Shown here piece by piece: positions 6,258 through 33,453 of a stretch of 64,000 bases of DNA. The translations under genes were made by a program, and so were the position numbers. Under the pieces are notes generated by a model. The model was given only the letters and a program-made list of their open reading frames with translations. It ran no database searches and was not told the origin of the DNA. Positions within the stretch are counted from its first letter, which is position 1. Each line of letters opens with the position of its first letter. Location: NCBI RefSeq assembly GCF_000219625.1, contig NC_018209.1, forward strand, positions 496,001 through 560,000, in the 5' to 3' direction. The DNA is from Zymoseptoria tritici IPO323 (lineage: Eukaryota; Ascomycota; Dothideomycetes; Mycosphaerellales; Mycosphaerellaceae).

Positions 6258-9200
6258 CTACACACCTCTGACCTTCCGATAACTCGGCGGCCTCACAAAA
6301 TCGCCCACAAACTTCCCACCCACCACCGGTCCCAAACTCACGGCTAAAATGCCCGCGCATCTCCACCAGAAACCGAAGTTTCCAAAGTATCCAAGATCGA
6401 AATACTCGCCCAGAGCCGGTAGACTACCAATGAAAATCGCCAGCGTAGCGAGGATGCTGGCCCACATTGACCAATGCCAAGTCACGATCTCGGCGGCGAC
6501 CATGGCGACTTCGTTCAAGATGAGAGCCGTGTACGACAGGGTGACCATCGTTCGGAACGGTTTGTTGTGGAGCGGCGCGTATGGATCGGGATTGGTACTG
6601 TCGTCGTCGTGAGTCATGTATGATGGCACGAGCAGCTCAGCGCCTCCCTGGATGACAACGCCTTGGTAGATGGAGATGCCCAACCAGATGAAGAAAGTGC
6701 GGTAGCTGAGGGACTTGCCCTGCGTGACCTCTTTGTAGAGCTCGGGGTACAGGTTTGCGAGTCCTTCGTCGACGTCTCGGTCCAGTACGAGAGAGAAGAC
6801 CGGCATCATAGTGTAAACGGTTGCATACCCGACGAGCAGGAAGTCGCGGTACAGAGCGATGGGCGTAAAGGAGGAGGCAATGCTGAACACGGTCTGGCAG
6901 ACAGAGATAATCAGTCCGCGATGAATGACGAACTGCGCGAGTTTGGCGCTGCGCTTGTAGGAGTTTCGGCCATGCCAGACAAGCAATTTCGTGAGATGTG
7001 CGAATTGCGTAATGCTGAAGTCGGCTGCCAGACTAGCCTGTTTGCCTTCTTTGCCGACAATGCCCACGCCCACGTCTGCCGCTTGAATCATGCTGACGTC
7101 GTTGCCGCCGTCGCCGATGCAGGCGATGCGCTTGCCGGTAAAGGCTCGGATGAGATGTGCAACGTCGGCTTTCTGAGTGGGAGAGCATCGGCAGGCGATG
7201 ACTGCGGGAAGACGTACGGCAGCAGCGACGAAAGTCTCGCGATGTGAGGGCGAGGAGAGGTAGATGTTTAGACTGTGGCCATCAATGAGCAGCGCAGAGT
7301 TGGGTTGCGATTGGAGAGGGCTGAGGGCGTCGAGCGCTGCAGCGCGGGATTTGAGATTGGCGATCGTGTGGATGTGTTGGCCGCGGGAGACGAGTTTGGA
7401 GGAAATGGCGACGCAGCGGGCGGTTTCGATCTTGTCGCCTGTGAGCATCCAAATTTTGATGCCGGCGTTGCGGAGAAGCTCGAGCGAGGGTTTGACGTGC
7501 GGCTGGAGTTTGTCTTCGACGCCAGTGACACCGAGGAGCTCCAAGTCGTTCTCGAGATGCTGCTTGATGGCAGAAGCCATCGCTGCATCGCGGCCGGATA
7601 GGGAAAGCGAGGCTTCCGCGTAAGCTGACGAAAACGCAGCGTATTGTTGCGTGCTGAGCACCTTGCGCCCGACCACGAGTGTGCGAAGACCTTCTCGAGC
7701 CATATTCCCAGTCTCTTCATCGAGCCAGTCGTTCGCCGCGACGATGGAAGTCATGACGGTGTCTGCACCCTTTTGGTAGAAGACAATTTCGCCCTCGTCG
7801 TCTTTGCTCAGATTTGTGTTGCGAATGAACCGCACAATGATACCCATTCGCTTGCTGTCGCTAGTGAACGGAAAGACGTTGAGAATCTCCACTCGGACGG
7901 CAGTCCGCTCGTCTGCAGTGAATTGGAGAGAGATGCGTTTGCGATCGCGGTGTGAAAGACGTAAGCCGACATGCTCCGTCCACTGCACAATGGCGATTTC
8001 GTCGGGCGATGAAGCCTGATATGAGATCGTTGGCTTGCCGTCTTCATCTTCTTCCGTCGTCGGAGTGACGTTATGGCACAGTGCAAGCGCGAGGACCAGA
8101 TCTCGGACTCGAAGACCAATCTCTCTTCGCGTTCTTGTGGCACCGCCCGCGGCAATGAAGCCTGCTGAGGGCGTGAACAATGTGCCTTGTGCGGCTTTGT
8201 CAGACAGCGCGAAAGCCTGCTTGACATAGCTGCTGACTTCCTCCATAGCATCTCCGCCGTAGCTGACAGTTCCAACATGGATCTTTTTCAGCTCCATCTC
8301 ATTTCTCGTCAGGGTCCCCGTCTTGTCACTAAGAAGATATTCGATTCTGCCCAGGTCTTCCGGAATGGTACTCGTCCGGACGACAGTCCCGGGAATGCCT
8401 TGATCACGATGTATGAGGCTCGCATACATGCTTTTGCCCAAGTCCAGATTCACGCGAAGTGAGATAGGCACAATGGTGCTGAAGAGAATCAAGAATCGCA
8501 TGGCATCCACGTACCATTTCTGGCCTTCATGTGTCTTGAAGCCTTCAAGTGCGACAAGGATGAAGCTCAGCGCAGCGGTCAAGACGCAGAGAATCTTGAC
8601 GAGATTGTTGATCTCAAGTTCCAGCAAGCCTGTCTTTGATCGTGATTGCGAAGTGGAGAGCGCGGCTCGCGTCTGCGATCCGGTGTAGACGACCAGCGCA
8701 TACACAGTCGTTGAAGATGCCAGCACAGTATTCGCCCATGCTGTGTTGTCGATGTTGAGAGGACTCGTCACAGATGTGGAAGAGATCTCCTCGGCCAATC
8801 GATGCCTCTTCGGCCCGAGTTCAATCGTTCCTACAAAATCGTTGACTTTCTTGTCCGGCTTGCCTGCCGTGACTTGCAGTCGAGTGTATTCGCTCGAGGG
8901 CAATGTCTGCGCGATCGGCACGGCCAGCCGCAATTTCCAATCCGTCTCTCCGTCGAGTTGATCAGTGCGGATGAAAGCCTCACCGCCTCCACTCGGGTCT
9001 GACGTTGTCGTTTCGTTCACTAAATCTTCCCCAAGCTCTGCTTTTGCCTGCAGTCTCTCGTCTCCTGACGGCGCATCAATTGCAGTTTCCGAATGCCTTC
9101 GAGCTTGTTGCGAATACGTTTCGACACTGAAGCTCTTAAGAATGACAACGTCGGCCGGAACTCTCTGGTCCTTGTTCAGCACAATCACATCGCCGACCTT

Positions 9201-18499: not shown

Positions 18500-21400
18500 T
18501 CAGCCATAAGGTAATCACACCGGCTCTTCCCGATCAAGGTTGTTGCTAACCGTCTTTTTTTCCGCTACAGAATGGTGGACTTTCCACTGCTGCGTTGCCG
18601 ATATGTACTGCGGCGGAAGCACCTGGTCGAGACGTCTCGGAGGTGGTGGTGGAACTGTGGCCAGCCCACCGTGTGTAAGGATGATAGAAAGGAGGAGGAC
18701 GACGGGATTTTCGGTTCTCGTTCTGTCTTGTCGCGCTTGTCTGTCAGTCATGTGTCTTGGCAAGCTGGAGCCTGACCACGGCAAAGTTGATGGTGCAATC
18801 TTCGACAGCTCAGCAAATCCGTCGTCCTCATCTACACACCCGTTTCCGTCCCTCTTGACCATGATAGGTTGCCGCATGTTTGAGGTGACCATTTGTTTTC
18901 CCATCGCACACAATTTCGAGTTGCCTAGGTGAGTAGCCGAACGGAGATGTGCAAAGGATGTCGTTCGCCAGCATGAGGACAACGCGATAGCAGGAAAATG
19001 AGGCCTGGATGTCCTCGTGTTGTATGTTCTGCTTGTTGCCCGAAGTTGAACCGATATCAAAGCAAGGCGCAAGCGCCAGATGGCGGATGCGTTGTCTTGC
19101 TGATAGAAATCTTGCTTCGGCATCGAACCGGGACACCGACGTATCAGCGGTCAGCCATCATGATGTGAGTGGTGCATTGGCGGGAGGAAGCGGCATCGGG
19201 TTCGCTTTTGCCTCGTACGTGAACCGCGCGGGTCGCTCTTGCCTCAACGCACGGCTGCTTCTCCCGAAGATGCTTATTTCCACGCCACTTCACTTCACTT
19301 CACTTCAACTTCATCTTCTCGTCCATCATCGTCACAGACCATGCCCACACCAATCGTGCCATTGTCATCGACCTCTCCATCGACGTGGAACGTCCAGATC
19401 CGCCTTGCACACCGCTCAGATGAGTGAGCACGAATTCCATCTCGGCCTTTCCCACCAGGTGGATGACTTGATACTCACCGTCCTTCGGTACGCGTGAGCT
19501 GACCTCGCCTCTTCCAGCATCGAACCCGACCGAGAGTGTGACCATCTTGCCAAAAGCGTTTCGTTCCGTCGTTCCAGGAAGACCCATCACAGCCATAGAC
19601 CCCAGATGTCCGCTGCAAGTCCTTCCCTATCAGCAAGCAACGGCTGCACCGCTCGCCCGCTCATCGAACAGTACACGGCGGGTCTCGCTTTCCGAGATCT
19701 CCCTGGTGAGAGTCGATGCCCCCAACTTGCCAGCTCTCGGGCGTGGACAATGCCAATGGAGGCCACTCCATGCGTACCGTCATGCCGCCGGCAGAGGAAT
19801 CATGCTCATCAATGATGGTCTCAGCGGGCGAGGCGCTTCAGCCGAACTGTCCACTCTTCAACGCCTGCCGCTCCTTGACTCGCCACTGTCGTCTGCTGCT
19901 CGACGGCCCTGCTCTACCGCTTGTCTACTAAAAGGTGAACGACGTCTAGGCTAACCGCAGCTCAACTGGCGCCTTCACTCGTTCCGTTGGCGAAGGAAGC
20001 AATCTTTACACAAGAGCCGTCAGCATTGAACAGACCTACCATATTATCTATCGAGCTACGAAGATTGGCACAATGAACCCCAAAACTGCCCGCGGCATGT
20101 TCGTCATTGAATGGCTCGCCAATAAGACATCAAAAGTGAATGCTGGACAACTGAGACCAAAGTCAACGGGCGTGTGAAGACCTCCGCCGCGATATGGCAA
20201 TACGGCCAACGCGAGGCAATTCCTCTATATTGACGAAACGCTCCGAGAGCAGGACTGTGCCATGCAGGATCTCGCATCTGCGTTCCGATTATGTTTGTTG
20301 GAGATGATGAACATCTGGAGGCTTCTTCAACCCATGCCATTTCACGATGTATGTCTCCATTTCGACCATGTTTGCTGGCGATGATGGGAATCTTCGCGTC
20401 GTCCAAGACCGACACCGAGGAAGGCTGACATGGCGCCTGCAAACGTGGGCATGTGCCCGTTGTTTGTCTCCAGCGGGTCATGCCTGCTGAGAGGAATGAT
20501 GTAGAAGTGTACCATCGCCGGTCGCATTGCTGCTGTTGCCTCCGCGCTTGCCCTGATCCTCGCGATTGCTGTTTGCAGCAGCCTTCTCGTAAATGGAGGT
20601 CCTGCTCTTGGTCCGTCCATCTCTTGTCTTGCGCATGTCTCAGGCCTTGCTCGTTTCCGGCCGTGAGAGATGGGTTTTCAAACGAAAGGCGTGTGAACGT
20701 TCGTGGGGAAACAAAATGAGGGTGGGCCGGAGGTATGTTCGAAAAGCCATGGATGTAGATTGCCCTCAAGGTCACTGCTGTGCAGCGCTTTGGGCGAAGC
20801 CAGTATTCAAAGAAGGCACGGCCACTTGGGCTCCCGGCGCGGTCCGGTGTAGGCTTGAAGTGCGCGTAGGCTTTCATCATGCGATCGATCGTGAAGCGTC
20901 AGAGCGGGATGAGGCTCAGGGAGAAGGACCGGTCTGGCTGGACTCGAGGCGCGATGAGAGCATAAGAGCGACGGGTGTGTTGTCCTTGTGGGACAAGATA
21001 GGGCAAAGAGGTCATAGTAAACAAGGACCACGGATCGGAGTAGGACAACGGGGAACACAATGGTCGTACGATCGTAGAAGCAGCGCAAGAGTGCTCATCA
21101 TCATGAGGCGCATTGTCGCTTGCGATGGACCCTGAGCATGGCCCATACCCCAGCAGAAAAAGAAGGTTTTCGATAAGCGCGTCACGTGGTTTTTTAGCGT
21201 GCTCAAACTTCACCTCACTTCACTCCTTCGCTGTGTCTTACACCTTAGAAGTACGCCGAAGCTGCTCGATACCAGGAAGTCCAGCAACATTGTGAATTCT
21301 CTCTTCTTTTGGTCCCTGCCGATCTTGTCGTCTTGCTCGTGGCGTTCTTTGTTAGCCGAAAGCGGCCGCTGTTGTCAGGGAAACTCCTCCTCCACAATGA

Positions 21401-21846
21401 GGCATCTGAAAGACCTTACTACTTACACCTTTCGCTATGCGCCTGGAGTCCCTGCGAATACACGAGACTGCTCTTGCTCCCCCACCCTGTACGGTCTGGC
21501 ACAACCAGGAGGTACGTGATCCAGGTTAGAGGAATCGTTGAGAAAATGAAGCTAAAGTCTCCACAACTTCGTTTGCTCCCCCCGCCACGTTTCAATGTCG
21601 TTGCTGCGCAAAGATGACGGTATGACCGGATGAGGGGTGATCGGCGTCAACAACTCCGCCGCGGAGGCTTGGCGCGCACGGCGCTGCCCCTCGTCCTTCA
21701 GCTTCAAATTCCTGCGCTGTCTCTTTCCTCTTCCTTCTTTACACATCGAGAACATTGCATGCGCGCGCACTTTACTGCTAGCTCTCTACACTGAGAGACA
21801 CGTCCTTTGTTGGACAACTGCCGCTTTGCTTCGTTTTTGGTCTGTC
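18500..21846. other. Gene-poor stretch, possible coding relics
   Basis: About 3.3 kb without a gene I can support. The plus-strand frame from about 19950 to 20178 reads like protein (RSVGEGSNLY, YHIIYRATKIG, MFVIEWLANK) and continues in the same frame after one TGA to about 20390. It has no start or partner exons. A minus-strand frame at 19300-19596 also looks protein-like. These may be remains of decayed genes or exons of a gene I cannot assemble. Confidence 0.3.
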
Positions 21847-22025
21847 CGAGGGGTACTGTTTAAGTGCTCCTCTATATCCTCTCCCTCCCTCCCTCTCTCT
21901 CTCCGAGGCGGTACCGTTTAGGTGCTCCTCTATCTTCTCTCTCCCTCTCGAGGCGGTACCGTTTAGGTGCTCCTCTATTTTCTCTCTTCTCCCCCCGAGG
22001 CGGTACCGTTTAGGTGCTCCTCTAT
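21847..22025 (+). repeat. Four tandem copies of a 30-nt leader element
   Basis: Copies lie at 21847-21875 (diverged, 29 nt), 21904-21933, 21949-21978 and 21996-22025. The last three are identical over 30 nt and include the core GGTACCGTTTAGGTGCTCC. The last two units repeat at 45-47 bp, each core followed by 15-17 nt of C/T-only spacer; a longer C/T tract separates the first two. The last copy ends 11 nt before the helicase ATG at 22037. The array is therefore core promoter or 5' untranslated region. The same 30 nt occur once more at 28270-28299. Confidence 0.9.
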
Positions 22026-22036
22026 TTCCTCTCAAC

Positions 22037-25000
22037 ATGGCTCCCAAGAACCAGCACGGCAGAAATGCCAACAAGCCCTCGCAGCAGCAGCCGCAGCAGC
22101 AAGGCAAGCAGTCCGAGAAGAACCGCGCTCCTCCTGCGGCGAAGTCGACGGCGACACCAGCACCGACTCAAAGCGGCGCAACAGTTGTCGGTCCGAGCAA
22201 AGCTGCAGGTAATGTAGACGAACTGTCTGCGAAGCTTGGTGACATCACCACGGGACAGCAGACTACTGCTGGTGCTGCCGCTGCTGCTCCGAAATCGCTC
22301 GCTGCCCCTGCCCCTGCCCCTGCTCCGATAACCGCTTCTGGAGATATGCCGAACATATTTGGCGGCATGCCGGACTCGTGGGAATCTGACGACGACGAGG
22401 ACCTGACTGGTCCGGCCTTCACGAAAGCGGAAGTTGGGCTCACCGACGGAGAGAACGGTGGTAAGTTCGTGTCCAGAGAGATCATCGACAAGCTCCAGAA
22501 TGGCGAAATCGTTCTCAAGGAACTGCCTAGGGACATGATGCTGCCAGCGAGTGAAAACTGGCTCTACCCATCCGATGCTACACAGGTTTACAACGTGTAC
22601 CGCGGTAGTGATGCTCCACGCGCGGAGAACATGGTCATCTATGATGCCGAGGGAAACAAGAAAGGCTCGCTCACCAAATCCAGCAAAGTCTTTCTGTCTT
22701 TCAATGACCACAAGGTCGGAATCGGAGCCCTCACTGGCAAGCCGGGACTCTTAGTGAAGCTTCAGTGGATTCTGCACAGCCAAGTACCAGGCTTCTTGCT
22801 CACCATTGAGCGGGGCAACGACCGTGGAACTGTTCAGGTTAGAGTTCACGTCAACAGTATGACGCGCGCTGAGGGTACGTTCGGTAGAGATGTCGGTTTC
22901 TCGATGCAATCCAGCGCCGAGAAGGGAGGACTGAAGGACCTTGCTCGCACAGGACTCGTTCTCGGCGACAAAGTCGAGGAAGGACTATGGGAGACACGTT
23001 GCAAGCTTCTCAAGAGCATGCACGAGCAAGCCACTGGGCCTCCACCATCTCGACCCCAGTTCGTCGGTATCAGTGAGAAGGAGCTGGCGGACATGAAAGC
23101 GAATTCGACTGATCTCAAATTCCTTGACGATTCTACGGGTCTTACTCATGGAGACTGGGCTTTGATCGCGCTTTTCGACACTGCAGACTTCAGTATGTTT
23201 CGATTCCTGCACACAGATGACGGTGCTCAACATGCGTATGGTACATTGAAGTACTGGCTGTGCGGTGCTATTCAAGACGTAGCGAGAAATGGAAACTTTC
23301 CTCACTACCGTAGACAGGCGGCCAAGCTTAGCCAGGATGTCAACAGTCGGGCATTCCGTCTACGAGAGACTGTCCCTCCGCGGCACATGGTCACCAAGTG
23401 GCGCATCACTTACGAAGCGGACGAAGCAGGCCGTCAGCGACCCGTCTCTGCGAGAGCTGAGCAGTGGACTTCTTTCGCGAAGCTCACGTTCTACCCGGAC
23501 AGCGAGTCGAAGGCTCTCGCACTCCGTATTGGAACCGAGCGCAACCGCGATTTCGGTGTGGCTATCATTCAGGACCTCCTGGATACCAAGATGGGCTCCC
23601 TACAAGCGCACATCACGCCGCTCCCTGACGACCCAAACCTCTACTGGATCGAAATCGCCGTCGAAGGCGGAGAAGGCTCGCTGTTCGGATCTGATCACCG
23701 CCTGAAGCCTGCAGTCAGCAGTCGGGTCGAGATCGTCGTTGCGGACGGAGACAACCGGGGTACTAAGTTCAACGGTACCGTTCAGGACGACCTGTTTGGC
23801 AGGAGGCCAGAGATCGCGTGCATCGCTCGTGTCGTTGGTAACAAGCGGCTCGACGAGGGAACCTTCCCAGTCAGCGTCGACATGAAGGACGACGGAACTC
23901 CTTGCGATCGTCAGAACGCAGCTCTCATCGAGCTGAGTCGCCGAGTCGAGCGGACCAAAGGTGTGGACATTGCAAACTTGGTGCTCCGTGCTAAGCCAAC
24001 CATCTTGGAACCAGAGGCTCTAGCGGAAGAGCTCTCCAGTGCGCCTTGGGCAAATGGAGATGCCATCTTGGAGAAGGTCATCAGCTCTTGGGCTCTCAAC
24101 CCAAAGCAGGCAGAGGCGGCTACACTGTCGACGAAGACACAGTCCGGCACTGTGTTGATACACGGCCCTCCCGGAACTGGAAAGTCTCGTGCTCTTGCTG
24201 CGATCGGTAACCTCCATGCGAAGCTCGGCCATTGTACTGGCATTGCTAAGCGACAGGTACTGTTTACCGCCCCGAGTAATTACGCAGTTGATCAACTCTT
24301 GTCGAAAATGGTCCAGAAACTCGACCTCAAGAAGGAGCGCATTCGAGTGTGCAGATTCACCGGCGATAAACCGCCAAAGGCTCCTCGTTCGACACCGCTG
24401 GCCGAACAGCAGGCGTCGGAGACTGCTCGGACAGATGAGTTCGTCGGTGAGGGTACTACTGACACGCTCTGGGAGCTCTGCGCGCGCATGGCAGAGAATA
24501 AGAAGGCTACGGCGCTCAGCGCGCAGTATTCGTTCTTTGTGCAGCGGAAGCAGTTCATCTACGACATATCTAGAGATACTGGTCATGAGTTCCAGCAAGA
24601 AGCCCTGTACTTCCGCACTCAGAAGAGGGATCTTGCGGAAGCCCTGAAGAAGGGCGACAAGGCGAGAGCTGATGAGTGTCGCAAGGAGATCACGATCAAC
24701 GAGCCTCTCTGGACGAAGCGCTACTTCGACGAAGTCGACTTCGTGTTTGTCACTAACAGTAGTGCAGCCCATGAGACTCTCATGGATTATCTCAAGCCTT
24801 CTGTGCTCATCAGCGACGAATCTGCTCTGGCGTCCGTGGCCGATATCGCAACGCCTCTCGCGGCCTTCCTAGAGTGGATCAAGCTCGTAGTCCTTGCAGG
24901 CGACCACAAGCAGATCGGTCCTCGCAACTTCTCCGCAGGTGCCAATGAGCTCTCGATCGACATGTCTCAATCGCTGTTCTCCCAGTTGGTTGAGAACAAG

Positions 25001-26140
25001 GGAGGTGAGGACCATGTCATGCTGACAGAGCAGTACCGCATGAAAGAAGCATTCTCGGAAATGGTGAACGAGATCTTCTACAACGGCAATCTGACGAACC
25101 ACGAGTCTCTTGCAACAACGAGCGCGCTTGAGGTCACTCTCAAAGACTTCTTCGGCCATCTCAGCCCGTTCTGGAATGGACGCCTCCGTCTTGCCGTCGA
25201 TGTCTCTGGCCCTGGGGTCAGTTCTGTCGCCACAGGATCGGCCAAGTCGACGAAGAACGAGGCTGAAGCAGCGGATCTCGTCGCTCTAGTGCATGCGTTG
25301 GTCAACTTCACGCCGAGCTCGACTGGAGGTCGCAAGATCAAGCGGGAGGACTTCCTCATCATCACGCCTTACGCAAGCCAGGTCACCGAGATTCAGCGTC
25401 AGTTGATCGCTCGGAACTTGACTGGTACCATCGAGGGCGATGCCATCGAGTGCCAGATCATGACTTCAGCAAGCGTGCAAGGCTTGGAGCACAAGATCGT
25501 GTTGCTCTCCAGCGTGAAGAATGAGCCTGGCAAGCCCATGAACATTGGTTTCACGAAAGATTCGAAGCAGCTTTGTGTCAACTTCTCGCGAGTAGAGGAG
25601 TGCATGGTGACGTTCAGCAACATCGCTGCTCATGCTGTCTCCCAGATCCGTGGAGCTCCGCAGATGACGCAGACGAAGACTGGCAAGATGTCGGCGTTCG
25701 CCAAGATCGTGGGCAGCTACCGCGACAAGAAGGACATCATCTCGAATGGTCATTTCAAGGCGCTGATCGGTCGTACAGAAGTTCGCGCTGCAGATGATAT
25801 CGAGATCATCTTCAAGCAAGTCCAGGAAGCGGAGACTGCGAAAGCCGACCGTGCCATCATGGAAGTCGATCAGGAAGGCAGACGTACTGACCGTAGAGGC
25901 CCTCGCGAGACAGGAGTACGTCCTCCGGGACTCGGACGCGATGCGCCAAAGGCCCGCCCGAACATGGTCTCCGCGTACCAGCAAGAGCAGTCTGCCTCGG
26001 AACAGCCAGGAGCCAAGCGGAAGCGTCCGGCAGTGGTTGGTGGCGACACCGAGCGATTGGCCACTCCGCGGCTCGACGAGGATTCTGCGATGGAGGAAGA
26101 CAACGTGGAGCCAGACGTCGAGATGGACGGAGCCTCTTGA
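22037..26140 (+). CDS. SF1 (UPF1-like) helicase, large intronless gene
   Basis: One frame of 1367 residues. After a Gln/Ala/Pro-rich start and an acidic segment, about 600 residues of unrecognised globular sequence precede an SF1 helicase core. Motifs: Walker A GPPGTGKS (710-717); motif Ia TAPSNYAVDQ; motif II SDES with Asp927-Glu928 (most UPF1-like enzymes have DEAG/DEAA or DEAS); GDHKQIGP (955-962); EQYRM (998-1002); ITPYASQ; and motif VI VNFSRVEECMV with Arg1185. The order and GDxxQ plus EQYRM mark the UPF1/Sen1/Dna2-type AAA_11-AAA_12 group, which unwinds RNA, DNA or hybrids 5' to 3'. There is no CH zinc domain, so it is not Upf1 itself. The C-terminal 150 residues are charged and disordered. 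It shares its leader with the gene at 28315. Confidence 0.85.
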   Translation: MAPKNQHGRNANKPSQQQPQQQGKQSEKNRAPPAAKSTATPAPTQSGATVVGPSKAAGNVDELSAKLGDITTGQQTTAGAAAAAPKSLAAPAPAPAPITASGDMPNIFGGMPDSWESDDDEDLTGPAFTKAEVGLTDGENGGKFVSREIIDKLQNGEIVLKELPRDMMLPASENWLYPSDATQVYNVYRGSDAPRAENMVIYDAEGNKKGSLTKSSKVFLSFNDHKVGIGALTGKPGLLVKLQWILHSQVPGFLLTIERGNDRGTVQVRVHVNSMTRAEGTFGRDVGFSMQSSAEKGGLKDLARTGLVLGDKVEEGLWETRCKLLKSMHEQATGPPPSRPQFVGISEKELADMKANSTDLKFLDDSTGLTHGDWALIALFDTADFSMFRFLHTDDGAQHAYGTLKYWLCGAIQDVARNGNFPHYRRQAAKLSQDVNSRAFRLRETVPPRHMVTKWRITYEADEAGRQRPVSARAEQWTSFAKLTFYPDSESKALALRIGTERNRDFGVAIIQDLLDTKMGSLQAHITPLPDDPNLYWIEIAVEGGEGSLFGSDHRLKPAVSSRVEIVVADGDNRGTKFNGTVQDDLFGRRPEIACIARVVGNKRLDEGTFPVSVDMKDDGTPCDRQNAALIELSRRVERTKGVDIANLVLRAKPTILEPEALAEELSSAPWANGDAILEKVISSWALNPKQAEAATLSTKTQSGTVLIHGPPGTGKSRALAAIGNLHAKLGHCTGIAKRQVLFTAPSNYAVDQLLSKMVQKLDLKKERIRVCRFTGDKPPKAPRSTPLAEQQASETARTDEFVGEGTTDTLWELCARMAENKKATALSAQYSFFVQRKQFIYDISRDTGHEFQQEALYFRTQKRDLAEALKKGDKARADECRKEITINEPLWTKRYFDEVDFVFVTNSSAAHETLMDYLKPSVLISDESALASVADIATPLAAFLEWIKLVVLAGDHKQIGPRNFSAGANELSIDMSQSLFSQLVENKGGEDHVMLTEQYRMKEAFSEMVNEIFYNGNLTNHESLATTSALEVTLKDFFGHLSPFWNGRLRLAVDVSGPGVSSVATGSAKSTKNEAEAADLVALVHALVNFTPSSTGGRKIKREDFLIITPYASQVTEIQRQLIARNLTGTIEGDAIECQIMTSASVQGLEHKIVLLSSVKNEPGKPMNIGFTKDSKQLCVNFSRVEECMVTFSNIAAHAVSQIRGAPQMTQTKTGKMSAFAKIVGSYRDKKDIISNGHFKALIGRTEVRAADDIEIIFKQVQEAETAKADRAIMEVDQEGRRTDRRGPRETGVRPPGLGRDAPKARPNMVSAYQQEQSASEQPGAKRKRPAVVGGDTERLATPRLDEDSAMEEDNVEPDVEMDGAS

Positions 26141-28269
26141 TCTGGTTCCATCGCCGCTCTTCCTTCCTGATAAGTGAGAGCACAACCTAACGGGGTGTTT
26201 GTCGGTATCGCCCTAAAAACCGTCGGCGTTTTGGGGAGTCAGCCTGAAGAACCCCAAAAACAAGAGGAGGAGGATGGACAGATCTATGGGAATTTTGGAA
26301 GCGTTTGCCGGGAGTGAGCTTGAAGGAAACCCGAAGAAAAGCAGAAATGGATGAGGACAAGACTGCGGAGGACATGAAATGAAGAGAAGAAAAATCAAGC
26401 CAAGAAGAATGGCACAACAAAACAAAACAAAATTCAAAGAACGAGCATGCTGCAGGGAAAGCTGGCGGACGATGTGTCGACATGGCGAGATTGAGATTGA
26501 GATTGGCCATGGAGGGCGAGATTGAGAGTACGAACGCGGGTGAGGTTGAGAGAGGGATTGAGATTGAGATCAAGATTGAGACGGAGACAAAGGACAAGCA
26601 TTGAGAGTGCGAAGAGTGAAGATCGAGATGGGAGTTGGAGCTGAGGTGCAAGATTCAGATAAGGATGGGCCAGCAATTGCGGTCGATGGAGCAGGAACGA
26701 CGAGATGGGAGGTGGAGATGCAGATGAGAGTGGAGTTCATATGAGAACGAGCAACTGAGGTCAGGTCCAGGGAGGAGATCGTACGAGGAGGAATGGCAGC
26801 GAGCGACGAAAGGCAGGAGTACGAGCAAAACATCGACACAACACACATACCCACACATCCACACACCCACACGAGCGGCAGCGCAACAGGAGCAACACAC
26901 AACAACCATACCTACCCGCACAACAAGAGCCGCGACACGAACAACGACACACGACGCTGGCGAGCAGACCGTCGTACACATCGACTGCTGCATTCTCAAT
27001 GCGTTGCAGCCGCGACAGACTGGAGGGAGGCAGGCATCCAGATCCACCACAACCATCCAGGCCGTCAACAAGCTCCACCCAATGCCATGTCCAATGCGAA
27101 TGCAAATAAGGAGGTGGCCGCCCAGAGCTCTTCATACGACGACATCTGCGCACCGAAAAATTGCCAGCCCACCAACAGCACAAGGATCGGCCATTGACTG
27201 CGCCCACAAACAACCAACAGTGAATGCCTCCGCCGCCTTCAACCGGCGACAATGCGAATACTGTCAACCGTGTCCCAATGAGCGACCATCAAACAGCCTC
27301 AAGCACAAAGCACGACAGCACTTCACCAAGGCAGAGCAGCTACAACCTCCCGCGATGGCCGAGCGGCCAAGTGAGGTCCACCACAGCACGAGCTCGAGCA
27401 ATACCATCAACGCGTCAATCAACACCCATCCACGGGCCACCGCGTCCAAGCAAAGCTCTCAGCATGCCACTCCCTCGGCCAGCGATGGAGGTCCTCCAAA
27501 ACAACAAGTCATTCTTGCTCTTGAGCAACAAAAGCGACGCATCGATCTCCGCAAGCAACAGCCAGCTCTTCCGGACCCTGAAAACTACCTTCGCCGTCCG
27601 GACAGCATCCCAAAAACCCAGCTCGGTTAGCGCGCCGCACAGTCCAGCTTCACACGTGACACAGCGCTCTTGCGAAGGACCGACGGCAATATCTCACCAA
27701 CAACGCCTCGGATCAAGAAACAGAATTGACAGCTCTCATCGCTGTCGCATGCTCTCCTGCCTCGAGTTTGAACCACGGAAAAAGAAAATGTTGAGCATAG
27801 TCGCCCACCGTCTCGGATGCCAAGCGGGACGATCGAGCAGGGGTCTCAGGCCGCGACATTGACATGTCGGGTTTCAAAGGATAAGACCAGTTGCGGGAAA
27901 ATTGATAGCAGAACGGGTGATGGGAATGGAGTCGATGTAAATAGAGCTTACGATCAATCGCAGTCACCTCTACCAATCTTCCCATACATGTCAGGTGCCA
28001 TAGTCGGGTGAGCGTCGGATATGGACCACTTCACTGACAGCAGCATTCGGCGACCCGCGTCGCTCTTTCCTCCCTGCCAGGTGAGATGCGGTCCCCCCTC
28101 ACCTTTGCATCTCTGTTTCTCGCTCCTCCTGCTCTTCTCCTCTTCTCTCTTCAGCACCGTCCATATCAATGCCACTGGCATCGTTGTTGAAACACACAGC
28201 TGGACGTGCCCTTGTGGAAAGAGCGAGTCGGCATCATCTTGATACCAACTTCACCTCTGTCTACGCCTT
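26141..28269. other. Purine-rich then C/A-rich non-coding stretch
   Basis: From about 26240 to 26790 the plus strand is dominated by G and A, with GAGATT-type short repeats. From about 26800 to 27650 it switches to C/A-rich. Several frames are open at once because of this bias (for example 26793-27197 and 27224-27862), but their products are low-complexity (His, Thr, Asn, Pro, Ser), so I do not call genes. A hairpin (TTTTGGGG at 26229-26236, CCCCAAAA at 26252-26259) lies 90 bp after the helicase stop. Confidence 0.6.
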
Positions 28270-28299
28270 CGAGGCGGTACCGTTTAGGTGCTCCTCTAT
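28270..28299 (+). promoter_or_regulatory. Single copy of the 30-nt leader element
   Basis: Identical over 30 nt to three of the copies in front of the helicase gene. It is followed by a C/T-only spacer and then CACCATG; the start codon at 28315 lies 15 nt after the element. Same orientation and nearly same distance to the ATG as at 22037 point to a shared promoter or leader function. Confidence 0.85.
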
Positions 28300-28314
28300 C
28301 TCCTCTTCTCCACC

Positions 28315-31300
28315 ATGAGCTTGCCTCACATCTTCTCGCCTTCGAGCGGCAGGGCTTCCAGCCAAGCCAACGGCAGCGGACATGGTTCTGCACCAATAGG
28401 TTCCCGGTCGGGAGTCCAAAATGCAGCGACAGCAGCACTCCGGCGTCCACTTGCACCGACGCAGCCACGAGCGAGCGGCACGGCTGCAGATGTTCCACCG
28501 TATGTGGAAGAAGCATGCCCGGCACCTACTGGCCCTGTCTCTCGTGAGTCCATGTCACGTCATGATACAACACCGCGCGGGTTGATGTCCACTGGCAAGC
28601 GTCCACGTTCAGTTGTCTTCAATTCGCCCGTTCAACCAAAGAAGGTAAAGTCCGCCCGTGTGGCTGATCGGTTTTCTTTGATTTTTGACCGACCGCCTCC
28701 CCCGATGACGAGCTTTCACCAGGGTGTGGTGGCAACTGACACGCCTTTAGTCTCGATTCTCAAGACGGTCCATCATGGTGCAGGTCATGGACCATCGCTG
28801 GGTGACCTGATCGCACAGTACAAGCAGGACGGCGGCAAGCAGCTCCGGGATGCTAGAGCTCTGATGCCTCAATCGCTTCACGCGATCGCAAATCCGCGAA
28901 AGCAGTCCTCGAGGATGGCGGGTAACATGTCCTCGCAGAGGGTGGCACAAGCACCCGTATCTGCAACTCCCGCGGAGACGCCTTGCAAGGCTCCGAAGCT
29001 GAACGAGTCAACAACGAATATCTTGGCGGGTACCGGTTCCTTGACCCCAATTATTCAGCGATCTGCTGCGTCCGAACAAGTCAAAAGCGACAATGCCCCT
29101 CGCGTGACCACGCAGCATTTCCAGGCGAGAAAGCCAATGACTGCACCCGGACAGAGCGTTCCACCCATGCACTCACCAGCTGAGGCTCATCGACCTGTCG
29201 ACGCCGTTTCCAGATCCAATGAAGCCGGCCAGCTAACCGAAAAGCAGAAAGCAGCGGTGGCTAGTTTCTTTGCCAGACGCCCGGGCCAGGTCACCGAACA
29301 GCAAAAGACGACAGTGGATAATTGCTTGGCTAGGCGGGCAGCTGCAGCCGCACCAGAAGCGGAGGATGATTACCTCCATGTTGATACAACTCCGGTAAAG
29401 ATTGATCAGGCAAAGCCACGTCAGAAGGACGACGCATCGACGCCCAAGGGTCGAAACGATCGACCCGCAGCTGAGGCGAACCTGACTGCAACGACGCAGC
29501 AGCGCACAGTCTACCAGTCTGGTAAAGCGATGCAGCCTTTGCAGCCAGCGAGACCGACAATGCCCACGATCTCGCAGCCGGCGGGGCCGATCATGCCGGC
29601 AGGTTTCCAATCCTCTCGACCGACAAAGCCAAGTCCGTTGAGACCAACGAGGCCCGCAATGCCGACAATCTCGCAGCCAGCGACACCGAGAACGCCAATG
29701 TATCTCCAATCGTCGAGCCCGGTAGTGCCGGTAAGCGCAGAACGTCTTCCGTTGAAGTGGTCTTTGAAAGCAACCGACGTTCCCTTTGGATCCGCCAAGA
29801 TCTACTGTGTTAAGCACGGTCACCACCCCGGCTTCTACTTCGACATGTCCACGGCGTGGGCTCAAATGAAGAACTTTGAAGGCACTCAATTCGACGAGTT
29901 TCCTCAAGAGGATGACGTGAAGCTTACTTCAGGTAACCTCGAATGGGCTGTTCAAGAAGCCGTGGTTTACATGAACATGTGGGGCAGTACTTGTTCTCCC
30001 CACTGCAGCTGCAAGGCTTCCAATCGAGGCGTGCCGTCAACGCCAGTCATGCGTGAGCCAGCACCACCTGTGCCAGCCAAGCACAATGCAGCGAACATGA
30101 TGCCTGCCCCACCGGTAAGGAGTCATGCTGCACCACTGACAATGCGTGAGCCACAGGCACCTATAACTACCGGACGCAATGCGGCGAACGTGATGCCCGC
30201 ACCACCGATAAGGAGTTATGCCTTGGAAGCGAAAGCTTTTGTGTCGCCTCTTCAACAGACGCCACAAGCTCCATCGAGAGCTCCTTCGACAACGTCTTCA
30301 CGCCATGTTGATCGGACGCCGGAGCAGAACATGCCACGATCGGAGTCTCCGCAAGGAGCGTACATGACTGACGCCTCAGACTTGTTCGTGACACCTGTCC
30401 GAGCCACGCCGCAGAAGGTTGTTGCAAGTGTGACACCGACTGCGAGCTCACCGGCGCCGACTGAAGACTCTCTTGGGAGTGGTCCGCGCAGATGGTCCCT
30501 TCGATTAGCAGATATCCCTACAGTGTCCAAGAAAATCCATGTTCTCTATCGCGGCGCTCAGCCAGGGTTCTATTACAACCAAACAGAGGTCAACATGCAA
30601 AAGAAAGGATTCCGTGGGTTTGTACTCAAGGTCTTTCCGGAAGGCAAAGGATCGGCGACTTGGCTTAGCCAGCACAACCGCGCTCAGGCCGTTCGCGACG
30701 CGGTGGCTTTCATGAATCACGACAACGTTTCCTGCACTTACGACTGCAGAGGCAAGTGTAGAGTAAGAGCATCTGGATCTGGTGCACTGCCAGAAATCGA
30801 GCCCAAGGTTGAGCAGGATATCATGGTCCATGAAGAGAGTTTTGCCGAACAGAGCGTGCAGGGTAGTGTCTCCGAACGGCATGACATACCACGCCATCCA
30901 TCGAATGGCGGTGAGTCCAAGAGCGTTTCAGCTGTAGAGTCGAATACCGGACACCAGGTGAAGAAGGCTACCATGCCGAGCGTTCAGGGAAGCGCCTCTG
31001 ACGCCAGCCAGAAGCCACCGAGCCAGCAGTCAAACGACGCTGACGACGCGGTCGCTCTAGTTGAAAAGAATGGTAAGTTGTCGTATTACAACAATCTCGA
31101 ATTCAATCGGAAACATGCAAACGTCCGCCGAGAAGCGACTGCTCGCCGGCAGCAAGAACTTCAGACCGTTGCAAGAGATGGCAACGATGAGTTTGCTGCA
31201 CCTCTGCTGCAGGTGATGGAGCGGTTTGAGCAGCATGACGAAGGTCAAAGGGCCGTTCTAGGTGACGAGTGGTACAGCAAGACCGGTACTTATGCGCTTC

Positions 31301-33453
31301 CTTTCCCGCATGGAAGCGGTTTTTCATCGGTGACCCTCGTCGAATGGCTGAGCTTACGGCCCGTTGAATCGGATGCCGCCTGGTATACTGACACCACTCT
31401 CTCCAACGCTGTTATCACAGGTAGGGACAGCTTTCTCCAAGGCCATTTCTTTTGCTCTGCGACCACCATCTACAGGTGGTACCCTGTCTCTCGAGAGGGC
31501 CTGCAGAAACTGGCAGAAATGCAAGTAGCCATTCGCTCTTTCCGTCAATCCGGCGGACTGGCGGCTCATGGACTATGCTGGCCATGCCTGGCCATGCCGC
31601 ATGACACGAAGAAAGTCGTCCTGCCGTGGAACACTGGCTTTCACTGGATCGCTGTTGCAATCACTCCTAACTTCGAAACGCGAGTGGGGAAGATCGAAGT
31701 ATTCGACTCCTTGGCAGGTCGTGATACCAAGTTGTTGCAAAGGATCCTGCCAGTGTTCGCGGACATGATCGGATTACAGTATGCCTGGGAGCAGACATGG
31801 GTCGTCGTCATTCGGGATACCATGAAGCAGAACAACTGGGTCGATTGCGGGCCGCTCGCTGCACACAATTGCAGGAAACTGCTTTCTGGCGAAAATCCAA
31901 GCGACGATGTGTACAACCTGGTCGGCGTCGACAAGTTCTGTCGGAAACTGCGGTTTGATCTTCTGAAGGCGATGTATTCGCTGTTCTTCAACGAAGAAAT
32001 TGACGAACCACGATCGTACAATTCGATTGGCGAGCTGACAATCGTAGGAAACTCGACTAGCAGGCGACAGCTCATCTGCAATGTTCTGTCTGCTGCTGCC
32101 ACGCCAATGACGGCCGACGCCGTAACAGAAGCGATAGTCCGGAACCGAGGATCGCCGCTGGGTTCGCACGACACGCTGCAGGAAGAAGTGACCATACTCC
32201 TGTGCCTGACTCCAGCGATTTTCGGACTCGTTGACGATACGAAATGGAAAATCCGGTCTGACCAGGCTTCCAGTGTCGCAAAAGCCACTTCGGATGTCCA
32301 TCTCAAGCGGGACCCAGAGAAAGACTGGCAGCTCACAACGCTGGATCCAATCGATCGGCCGTTTGACTTGTATATCGTCATCATCAGGACCAGTGCTTAC
32401 GTCTCCAGGAAGAGTGCGAACAACAACCACGACGTCCGACCACGGGAGCTACTCGAGGCATACTGGCATCGGTTTGGGCAGACTCAGGATTTGCCGCAGC
32501 AATATGTGTACGAGGACGATCTGGATCTGAACGTTCCGATCTGGCACCCGTACTTTCGCGAAGCGAAGTCGAGCCGTAAATCCGTGGTACACGGCACTAC
32601 TGCTGAGGTCGCTGAGGTCCGCAGGATTTTCCAAGTGGCCAACGATAAAGCACTGGAGGTCGAAGGCAGACGGCCACGGGTACTGTTACTCGGCAACGGC
32701 TTTGATGGGCTAACCTCCAACAACGATACCTGGGCGGAACTGACAGAAGCGTACCCAGAACTGGACTTCAGCATCTCGCTCTCGCTGCCTAGGAGTATGT
32801 GTCCTCCGGGCCTGTTCCGCGACGTCGGTGGCGACGATAGGTATGGCCTCAACACCTGGGCGCACTACGAGGTCAAGCTGCTCGCCGCCGCGTGGAGCAA
32901 AGTCTCCAAGTTCGCGCTGGCAGACCGCACGCCGTCGTCCTGGAAAGCCCATCACGAACAGTTTGTATTCATCTGTCTGCTGATAGACTGCAAGAAACTG
33001 GACCACTCGCTCTGGTATAGACGCAAGATCTGGCCTATCGAGATCAAGCCAGCGGAGGAGAATCCTCGTGCGGTTCGTCTGCTGGATAATCGCAATCAGC
33101 AGGATCTGGAACGCTTGGCCGACCGGGAATGTGGGGTCTGCGGGACTGATACCAGCGAGCGCTGGTATAGGTTCCACGCCGACACGTTAGACGTCATGTG
33201 CACGAACTGCTTGCCCGAAGTGGAGTGCAGCAAGAACACTGCCGCAGCGGAGGAGGAGAATCGCGAGACGCCGTCTCGGCAGTCGTCGCCAGCCTTGAGT
33301 CTGGCTGCGAACGATGACGATATTTTTGCTAACATCCAGCAGAGTGAAAGACTGGTGACAGCGGCGGTCCTCCGAGCGAGGATCAAGAACGGCAGAAGGG
33401 CCAACGACGAGTTTGTGGTCGAGTCTGACGACGACGGCGAAGACATGGAGTAG
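28315..33453 (+). CDS. Hybrid-binding-domain / Ulp1-like protease fusion, 1712 aa
   Basis: An intronless frame read from the ATG at 28315 (context CACCATGAG). Residues 1-480 are disordered. Two copies of an RNase H1 N-terminal/viroplasmin (Cauli_VI) domain follow at about 494-556 (KIYCVKHGHHPGFY, then K-x-F-x-G) and 738-800 (HVLYRGAQPGFYY, then KGFRG), each with a short C/CxC tail. At about 1060-1230 lies a Ulp1/SENP-type C48 protease domain with a complete catalytic set: His1110 (FHWIAV), Asp1131 (VFDSL), Gln1172 and Cys1178 (VDCG), the Gln-Cys spacing being the same as in Ulp1. Near the C-terminus is a GATA-like finger, CxxC-x19-CxxC (1606-1632). The first domain binds RNA:DNA hybrid or dsRNA in RNase H1; the protease family removes SUMO or ubiquitin-like proteins. 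Combined function is inference. Confidence 0.8.
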   Translation: MSLPHIFSPSSGRASSQANGSGHGSAPIGSRSGVQNAATAALRRPLAPTQPRASGTAADVPPYVEEACPAPTGPVSRESMSRHDTTPRGLMSTGKRPRSVVFNSPVQPKKVKSARVADRFSLIFDRPPPPMTSFHQGVVATDTPLVSILKTVHHGAGHGPSLGDLIAQYKQDGGKQLRDARALMPQSLHAIANPRKQSSRMAGNMSSQRVAQAPVSATPAETPCKAPKLNESTTNILAGTGSLTPIIQRSAASEQVKSDNAPRVTTQHFQARKPMTAPGQSVPPMHSPAEAHRPVDAVSRSNEAGQLTEKQKAAVASFFARRPGQVTEQQKTTVDNCLARRAAAAAPEAEDDYLHVDTTPVKIDQAKPRQKDDASTPKGRNDRPAAEANLTATTQQRTVYQSGKAMQPLQPARPTMPTISQPAGPIMPAGFQSSRPTKPSPLRPTRPAMPTISQPATPRTPMYLQSSSPVVPVSAERLPLKWSLKATDVPFGSAKIYCVKHGHHPGFYFDMSTAWAQMKNFEGTQFDEFPQEDDVKLTSGNLEWAVQEAVVYMNMWGSTCSPHCSCKASNRGVPSTPVMREPAPPVPAKHNAANMMPAPPVRSHAAPLTMREPQAPITTGRNAANVMPAPPIRSYALEAKAFVSPLQQTPQAPSRAPSTTSSRHVDRTPEQNMPRSESPQGAYMTDASDLFVTPVRATPQKVVASVTPTASSPAPTEDSLGSGPRRWSLRLADIPTVSKKIHVLYRGAQPGFYYNQTEVNMQKKGFRGFVLKVFPEGKGSATWLSQHNRAQAVRDAVAFMNHDNVSCTYDCRGKCRVRASGSGALPEIEPKVEQDIMVHEESFAEQSVQGSVSERHDIPRHPSNGGESKSVSAVESNTGHQVKKATMPSVQGSASDASQKPPSQQSNDADDAVALVEKNGKLSYYNNLEFNRKHANVRREATARRQQELQTVARDGNDEFAAPLLQVMERFEQHDEGQRAVLGDEWYSKTGTYALPFPHGSGFSSVTLVEWLSLRPVESDAAWYTDTTLSNAVITGRDSFLQGHFFCSATTIYRWYPVSREGLQKLAEMQVAIRSFRQSGGLAAHGLCWPCLAMPHDTKKVVLPWNTGFHWIAVAITPNFETRVGKIEVFDSLAGRDTKLLQRILPVFADMIGLQYAWEQTWVVVIRDTMKQNNWVDCGPLAAHNCRKLLSGENPSDDVYNLVGVDKFCRKLRFDLLKAMYSLFFNEEIDEPRSYNSIGELTIVGNSTSRRQLICNVLSAAATPMTADAVTEAIVRNRGSPLGSHDTLQEEVTILLCLTPAIFGLVDDTKWKIRSDQASSVAKATSDVHLKRDPEKDWQLTTLDPIDRPFDLYIVIIRTSAYVSRKSANNNHDVRPRELLEAYWHRFGQTQDLPQQYVYEDDLDLNVPIWHPYFREAKSSRKSVVHGTTAEVAEVRRIFQVANDKALEVEGRRPRVLLLGNGFDGLTSNNDTWAELTEAYPELDFSISLSLPRSMCPPGLFRDVGGDDRYGLNTWAHYEVKLLAAAWSKVSKFALADRTPSSWKAHHEQFVFICLLIDCKKLDHSLWYRRKIWPIEIKPAEENPRAVRLLDNRNQQDLERLADRECGVCGTDTSERWYRFHADTLDVMCTNCLPEVECSKNTAAAEEENRETPSRQSSPALSLAANDDDIFANIQQSERLVTAAVLRARIKNGRRANDEFVVESDDDGEDME

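Follow-up and report, generated by a model that had tools for sequence, protein, structure and literature searches.

A putative RNA hairpin shared by the leaders of a UPF1-like helicase gene and an Ulp1-like protease gene in Zymoseptoria tritici

Iron-responsive elements, which have a CAGUGN loop, a 5-bp stem, and a bulged C, are short hairpins that lie near the start of several mRNAs and join them into a regulon. In Drosophila, the roX long noncoding RNAs (lncRNAs) carry stem-loops on which an RNA helicase, MLE, acts. MLE is a DExH helicase with double-stranded RNA-binding domains (dsRBDs). Conserved structure in an untranslated part of the mRNA is also found in the autoregulated messages of ribosomal proteins and aminoacyl-tRNA synthetases, and for the fungal synthetases a model has been put forward (PMC8216456) in which the protein binds a primary RNA target and, secondarily, its own mRNA; this is the nearest fungal precedent for what we propose here. 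Structured regulatory leaders in fungal mRNAs have seldom been described. Here, we analyzed a 64,000-nucleotide stretch of the Zymoseptoria tritici IPO323 genome (the window; contig C10, positions 496001 to 560000, in a 39.7-Mb genome of 21 contigs) in which a short element stands directly before the ATGs of two genes. One encodes a UPF1-like superfamily 1 (SF1) helicase of 1367 residues (22037 to 26140, + strand), and the other encodes a 1712-residue protein with one or more RNase H1 hybrid-binding domains and an Ulp1/C48 protease domain (28315 to 33453, + strand); both frames are uninterrupted. We propose, with a probability of roughly one half, that the element is an RNA hairpin in both 5' leaders through which the pair controls its own messages, with a likely noncoding RNA from contig C1 as the pair's principal target or a competing one.

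Perfect copies of a 19-nt core start at 21910, 21955, 22002, and 28276, and a diverged copy with two mismatches starts at 21852, all on the + strand; the number expected by chance was a mean of 0.00 in 100 shuffles. The corresponding hairpins in the helicase leader are w1 (21847 to 21882; the diverged copy, one base shorter), w2 (21905 to 21940), w3 (21950 to 21985), and w4 (21997 to 22032), the last lying directly 5' of the helicase ATG, while w5 (28271 to 28306) lies directly 5' of the protease ATG; w2 to w5 each have a pyrimidine tail. A preliminary description of this DNA had reported three perfect copies and one diverged copy before the helicase and one perfect copy before the protease, all in the same orientation, and the core positions and strands bear this out. 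The reported spacing also holds, as a 29-nt element (ending in CTCTAT) stops 11 nt before the helicase ATG and 15 nt before the protease ATG. The linkers had been called C/T-only, which is not so: TTCCTCTCAAC and CTCCTCTTCTCCACC are pyrimidine-rich and contain other bases.

The element is confined to very few places. The exact core occurs at 4 places genome-wide, all within the window; the 29-mer with up to 3 mismatches occurs at 5, the fifth being C1:5102943; and a degenerate 30-nt pattern, allowing at most 3 mismatches, gives 9 places and 0 control matches. Of these nine places, five lie ahead of the helicase and protease ATGs and four form a tandem series on C1 (including copies c1a and c1d), with the same orientation throughout. 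When a 15-nt piece was searched with 1 mismatch allowed, four unrelated places matched as well, which is at chance level (2 matches for the reversed control). A transposon end or scattered repeat is rejected, since the nine places fall within just two loci, one on C10 and one on C1; hundreds of scattered copies were the outcome that the preliminary description had held would count against its own proposal, and the genome search returned nothing of the kind. Searches of window positions 21500 to 28700 and of the C1 locus for known RNA families gave only matches below the gathering score, with E values of 2 or worse. A 49-codon upstream frame (28169 to 28318) spans w5, and its stop overlaps the protease ATG (ATGA); the differences between c1a and w5 are mainly silent in this frame. 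It is unlikely that the hairpin is coding sequence for a shared peptide, since the copies stand in different phases (spacings of 45, 47, 65, and 67) and w1 lacks one base.

The predicted fold is GAGG-C-GGUACC-GUUUA-GGUGCU-CCUC, that is, 4 bp, a bulged C, 6 bp, and a 5-nt loop, followed by the pyrimidine tail. In an alignment of eight copies, from which w1 was left out for being one base shorter, 97.5% of the stem cells are paired, compared to 49 to 63% when the partners are slid. Both-sided compensatory changes occur in 4 of the 10 stem pairs (A-U to G-C, G-C to A-U, and C-G to U-A or G-U), and the covariation score of 0.429 was reached by none of 500 shuffles (0.222) and fell to 0.157 or less on sliding. 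The model still recovered w1, which had been kept out of it, at 46.9 bits. Single copies folded better than shuffles in most cases, not in all (z of -5.1 to -1.4). A U-G pair is present in 8/8 aligned copies, G-U pairs recur, and in 9/9 copies folding is much weaker for the antisense strand; because of the invariant U-G pair and this asymmetry, a DNA palindrome is the poorer reading. We therefore favor, from these sequence features, a structured RNA in the 5' leader over a promoter box, which presupposes that the hairpin is transcribed. The earlier wording, "promoter or 5' UTR element" (untranslated region), can thus be narrowed, its second half being favored by the compensatory changes, the conserved G-U pairs, and the strand asymmetry.

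The pattern recurs, with a different sequence, in a pair of paralogs on contig C6. A genome search with the helicase gave six matches, its own place among them, of which one other spans most of its length (30%, C6:1458523-1461543); the remaining four are partial (E of 1e-12 to 2e-4), and one of these, at C1:5115039, we take by its frame to be Dna2-like. The protease has a single other match, 26% over 145 residues at C6:1441304-1441753, which sits in a 1456-residue Ulp1-like frame whose C48 domain scores 21.1, just over the cutoff. These two C6 genes point away from each other, and some 12 kb separate their ATGs. An alignment of their leaders spans 169 columns at 82% with 17 gaps; the leaders end in an A-run directly 5' of both ATGs, and are unrelated in sequence to the window hairpin; a genome search with the helicase leader returned the two C6 places only, with no third copy. 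The preliminary description had suggested a two-gene module from the window alone, and that suggestion is strengthened by the finding that the paralogs of the protease and of the helicase are paired as well, with a common leader of their own before the ATGs.

Several other observations concern the C6 region and its relatives. At 1.1 to 2.1 kb upstream of the Ulp1-like ATG, a 28-nt unit is repeated in tandem in two arrays, with 19.7 copies in one and 6.7 in the other (L030:6220-6770 and 7022-7209, L030 being a stretch of C6), and the core of the units, CAGTC-NNNN-GACTG, is an inverted repeat. Within the gap between the C6 genes, at C6:1449535-1449947 (- strand), two pieces resemble the C6 Ulp1-like protein (48% and 36%), one of them with a TGA, and are likely the remains of another Ulp1-like copy. 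Besides C10 and C6, the genome has seven of its nine Peptidase_C48 places elsewhere. C17 holds three such places and C21 one, two of these with one internal stop; we presume that both contigs are accessory chromosomes. No common leader was found in 3.3-kb pieces around the C48 places on C9, C17 (two), and C21 when compared to C10 and C6, although these pieces may stop short of the leaders.

The third locus, on C1, brings the two hairpin types together and was missed by the preliminary description. Four diverged window-type hairpins stand there in tandem, 63, 65, and 67 nt apart. A search for the core hairpin of the C6 leaders (a 34-nt pattern, up to 3 mismatches) found both C6 leaders and only one further place, C1:5102743, which precedes the first window-type hairpin on C1 by about 165 nt; a single stem pair, U-A on C6, is replaced by C-G on C1. 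The locus, studied as L034:250-3300, has no long reading frame (the longest is 159 codons, on the + strand) and is likely noncoding, as far as its frames indicate. Its 3' part consists of tandem units, three of which follow the order of the C6 leaders, with a hairpin bearing a YUCG loop, then another hairpin, and then a tail rich in pyrimidines; in the fourth, the first hairpin is weak, and the C6-type unit has no YUCG-loop hairpin. Five YUCG hairpins, three of them inside units, occur in these 3.05 kb; the 300 control stretches averaged 0.47 and none had as many as five, the motif having been picked after the units were inspected. Two adjacent units differ at 12/53 positions, and six of these make up three compensatory pairs. 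A lone C1-like piece lies beside the window helicase on the opposite strand (20804 to 20906, - strand; 80% over 66 nt plus 20/21 nt, the 21-nt piece alone being not significant at an E of 4.65).

The two window proteins share no family, in keeping with the lack of sequence similarity noted earlier: Pfam gives AAA_11 and AAA_12 for the helicase and Cauli_VI and Peptidase_C48 for the protease, without overlap. The helicase has the AAA_11/AAA_12 core and the helicase motifs of the UPF1-like SF1 group, its profile relatives are NAM7/UPF1, SMUBP-2, SEN1, and ZNFX1, and its start matches that of P0005 from another strain. UPF1, the nonsense-mediated decay factor, carries an N-terminal CH domain (PF09416). 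Neither this domain nor a dsRBD was matched in the helicase by Pfam at an E of 0.01, so that the protein is not UPF1 itself by its domains. The C48 domain of the window protease scores 33.2 bits against a cutoff of 20.7 and has the His/Asp/Gln/Cys pattern (HW, DS, and KQNNWVDCG), and the earlier name of SUMO/ubiquitin-like protease is right as a C48 domain call, SUMO/ubiquitin specificity aside. One hybrid-binding domain is clear in this protein, and a second passes in its relative from strain 1A5; a search of solved structures with the hybrid-binding stretch found RNase H1 only at E values of 0.61 to 0.79. Structure predictions were poor (mean predicted local distance difference test scores of 47.2 and 40.4). 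The best protein matches are from Z. tritici, at 98 to 100%. Few relatives were found: seven for the helicase at an E of 1e-10 or better among 7994 candidates scored, two for the protease among 5114, and one for the C6 Ulp1-like paralog among 5554. The start of the C6 Ulp1-like protein, like that of the helicase, matches annotated proteins of other strains.

The proposed control draws on the folding potential, the compensatory changes, the place before the ATGs, the distribution of copies, the C6 pair with its own leader, and the C6-type hairpin in C1. It takes the hairpins and the C1 locus to be transcribed. Each pair's proteins would recognize the hairpin particular to that pair, mainly in the C1 RNA, and protein in excess of that RNA would bind the same hairpin in its own mRNA leaders and lower their translation, giving feedback. 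A block to the scanning ribosome is plausible because the hairpin lies 11 to 15 nt before the ATG, and the helicase and hybrid-binding domains, as predicted, would fit RNA binding. A wider version, offered only tentatively, is an RNA-addressed gene system: the two mRNAs of each pair would bear a hairpin reserved to that pair, and one noncoding RNA, a hub with the hairpins of both pairs in tandem units, would measure and set the dose of several coevolving protein pairs. If the proposal is true, shared hairpins would here keep proteins in register with their mRNAs and with one common RNA, a compact eukaryotic case of such an arrangement, and the targets bound by the fast-changing helicase and Ulp1-like proteins would be directly open to study.

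Several results weigh against this reading. The window-type copies offer few independent comparisons, the stem being identical in 4 of the 8 aligned hairpins; one of the five measures of covariation, that of further pair types, was no better than in shuffles (330/500); and the folding of c1d was equaled by 21/200 shuffles. Two of the three copies of the C6-type hairpin lack strand specificity, folding about equally well in antisense, and the same holds for most C1 units. The covariation between the two C1 units is weak alone (two sequences; 66/500 shuffles), and fold energies along the whole C1 locus are unremarkable (z of -2.6 to +2.3). The annotated protease of 1A5 begins downstream in another frame, making the ATG of the window protease less certain. 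Finally, a survey of lncRNAs (PMC10711317) reports none on chromosome 10, in the sections of it that were accessible.

Of the other explanations, the one that survives best is that the hairpin gathers both mRNAs, and perhaps the C1 RNA, at one place or carrier for joint synthesis and assembly without any feedback. It would account for a pair-specific, RNA-structured element on both mRNAs, but the tandem copies on C1 are unexplained by such a tag alone and the place just 5' of the ATG fits translational control better; we regard it as unlikely. Lower, and on a par with each other, stand two further readings. Joint transcription of both genes by a factor binding the DNA would suit the shared orientation, the closeness to both genes, and a stem that is also an imperfect inverted repeat; however, G-U pairing is not needed by a DNA palindrome, the copies lie only 11 to 15 nt from the ATG, and, with the much weaker antisense folding, this seems rather improbable. 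It is similarly doubtful that the helicase/Ulp1-like pairs are rapidly evolving loci of a recognition or selfish kind, with leaders and C1 array serving as pair-specific identity marks and not for dosage control. In favor of this, a helicase 98% identical to that of the window is found in strain 1E4 and one 60% identical in ST99CH_3D1, few relatives were found, and there is a decayed Ulp1-like piece in the C6 gap. The 60% form (P0006, compared with the helicase at 22037 to 26140) lies on a contig of 1.84 Mb, similar in size to that of the 98% form, and is possibly a very divergent allele. Genes with highly divergent haplotypes are reported in Z. tritici (PMC4825649), and the accessible part of that report does not mention the window genes. 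Against this explanation, the genes have no known toxicity, drive, or incompatibility, and the 60% form is only a candidate allele. Least probable is a functionless repeat spread locally by tandem duplication and gene conversion, which would explain the array before the helicase and the four perfectly identical copies but neither the covarying stem pairs of the diverged copies nor the repetition of leader sharing, with other sequence, in the paralogous pair.

We found no earlier report of this helicase/Ulp1-like module in the open-access literature searched, and the accessible sections of the lncRNA survey (PMC10711317) make no mention of its genes. The locus differs from each of the systems it resembles. 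Compared to iron-responsive elements, the loop is GUUUA, the upper stem has 6 bp, and no link to iron is seen, which sets the hairpin outside that class. Unlike in the roX/MLE system, the helicase is of the UPF1-like SF1 type with no dsRBD match, and the hairpin is also present in protein-coding mRNAs. The autoregulatory mRNA structures come closest, as a conserved structure is predicted in the RNA a short way before the start codons of the window genes. In contrast to those systems, one hairpin here joins two unrelated genes, a paralogous pair repeats the pattern with a leader of its own, binding is predicted only, and a third locus holds both hairpin types in tandem.

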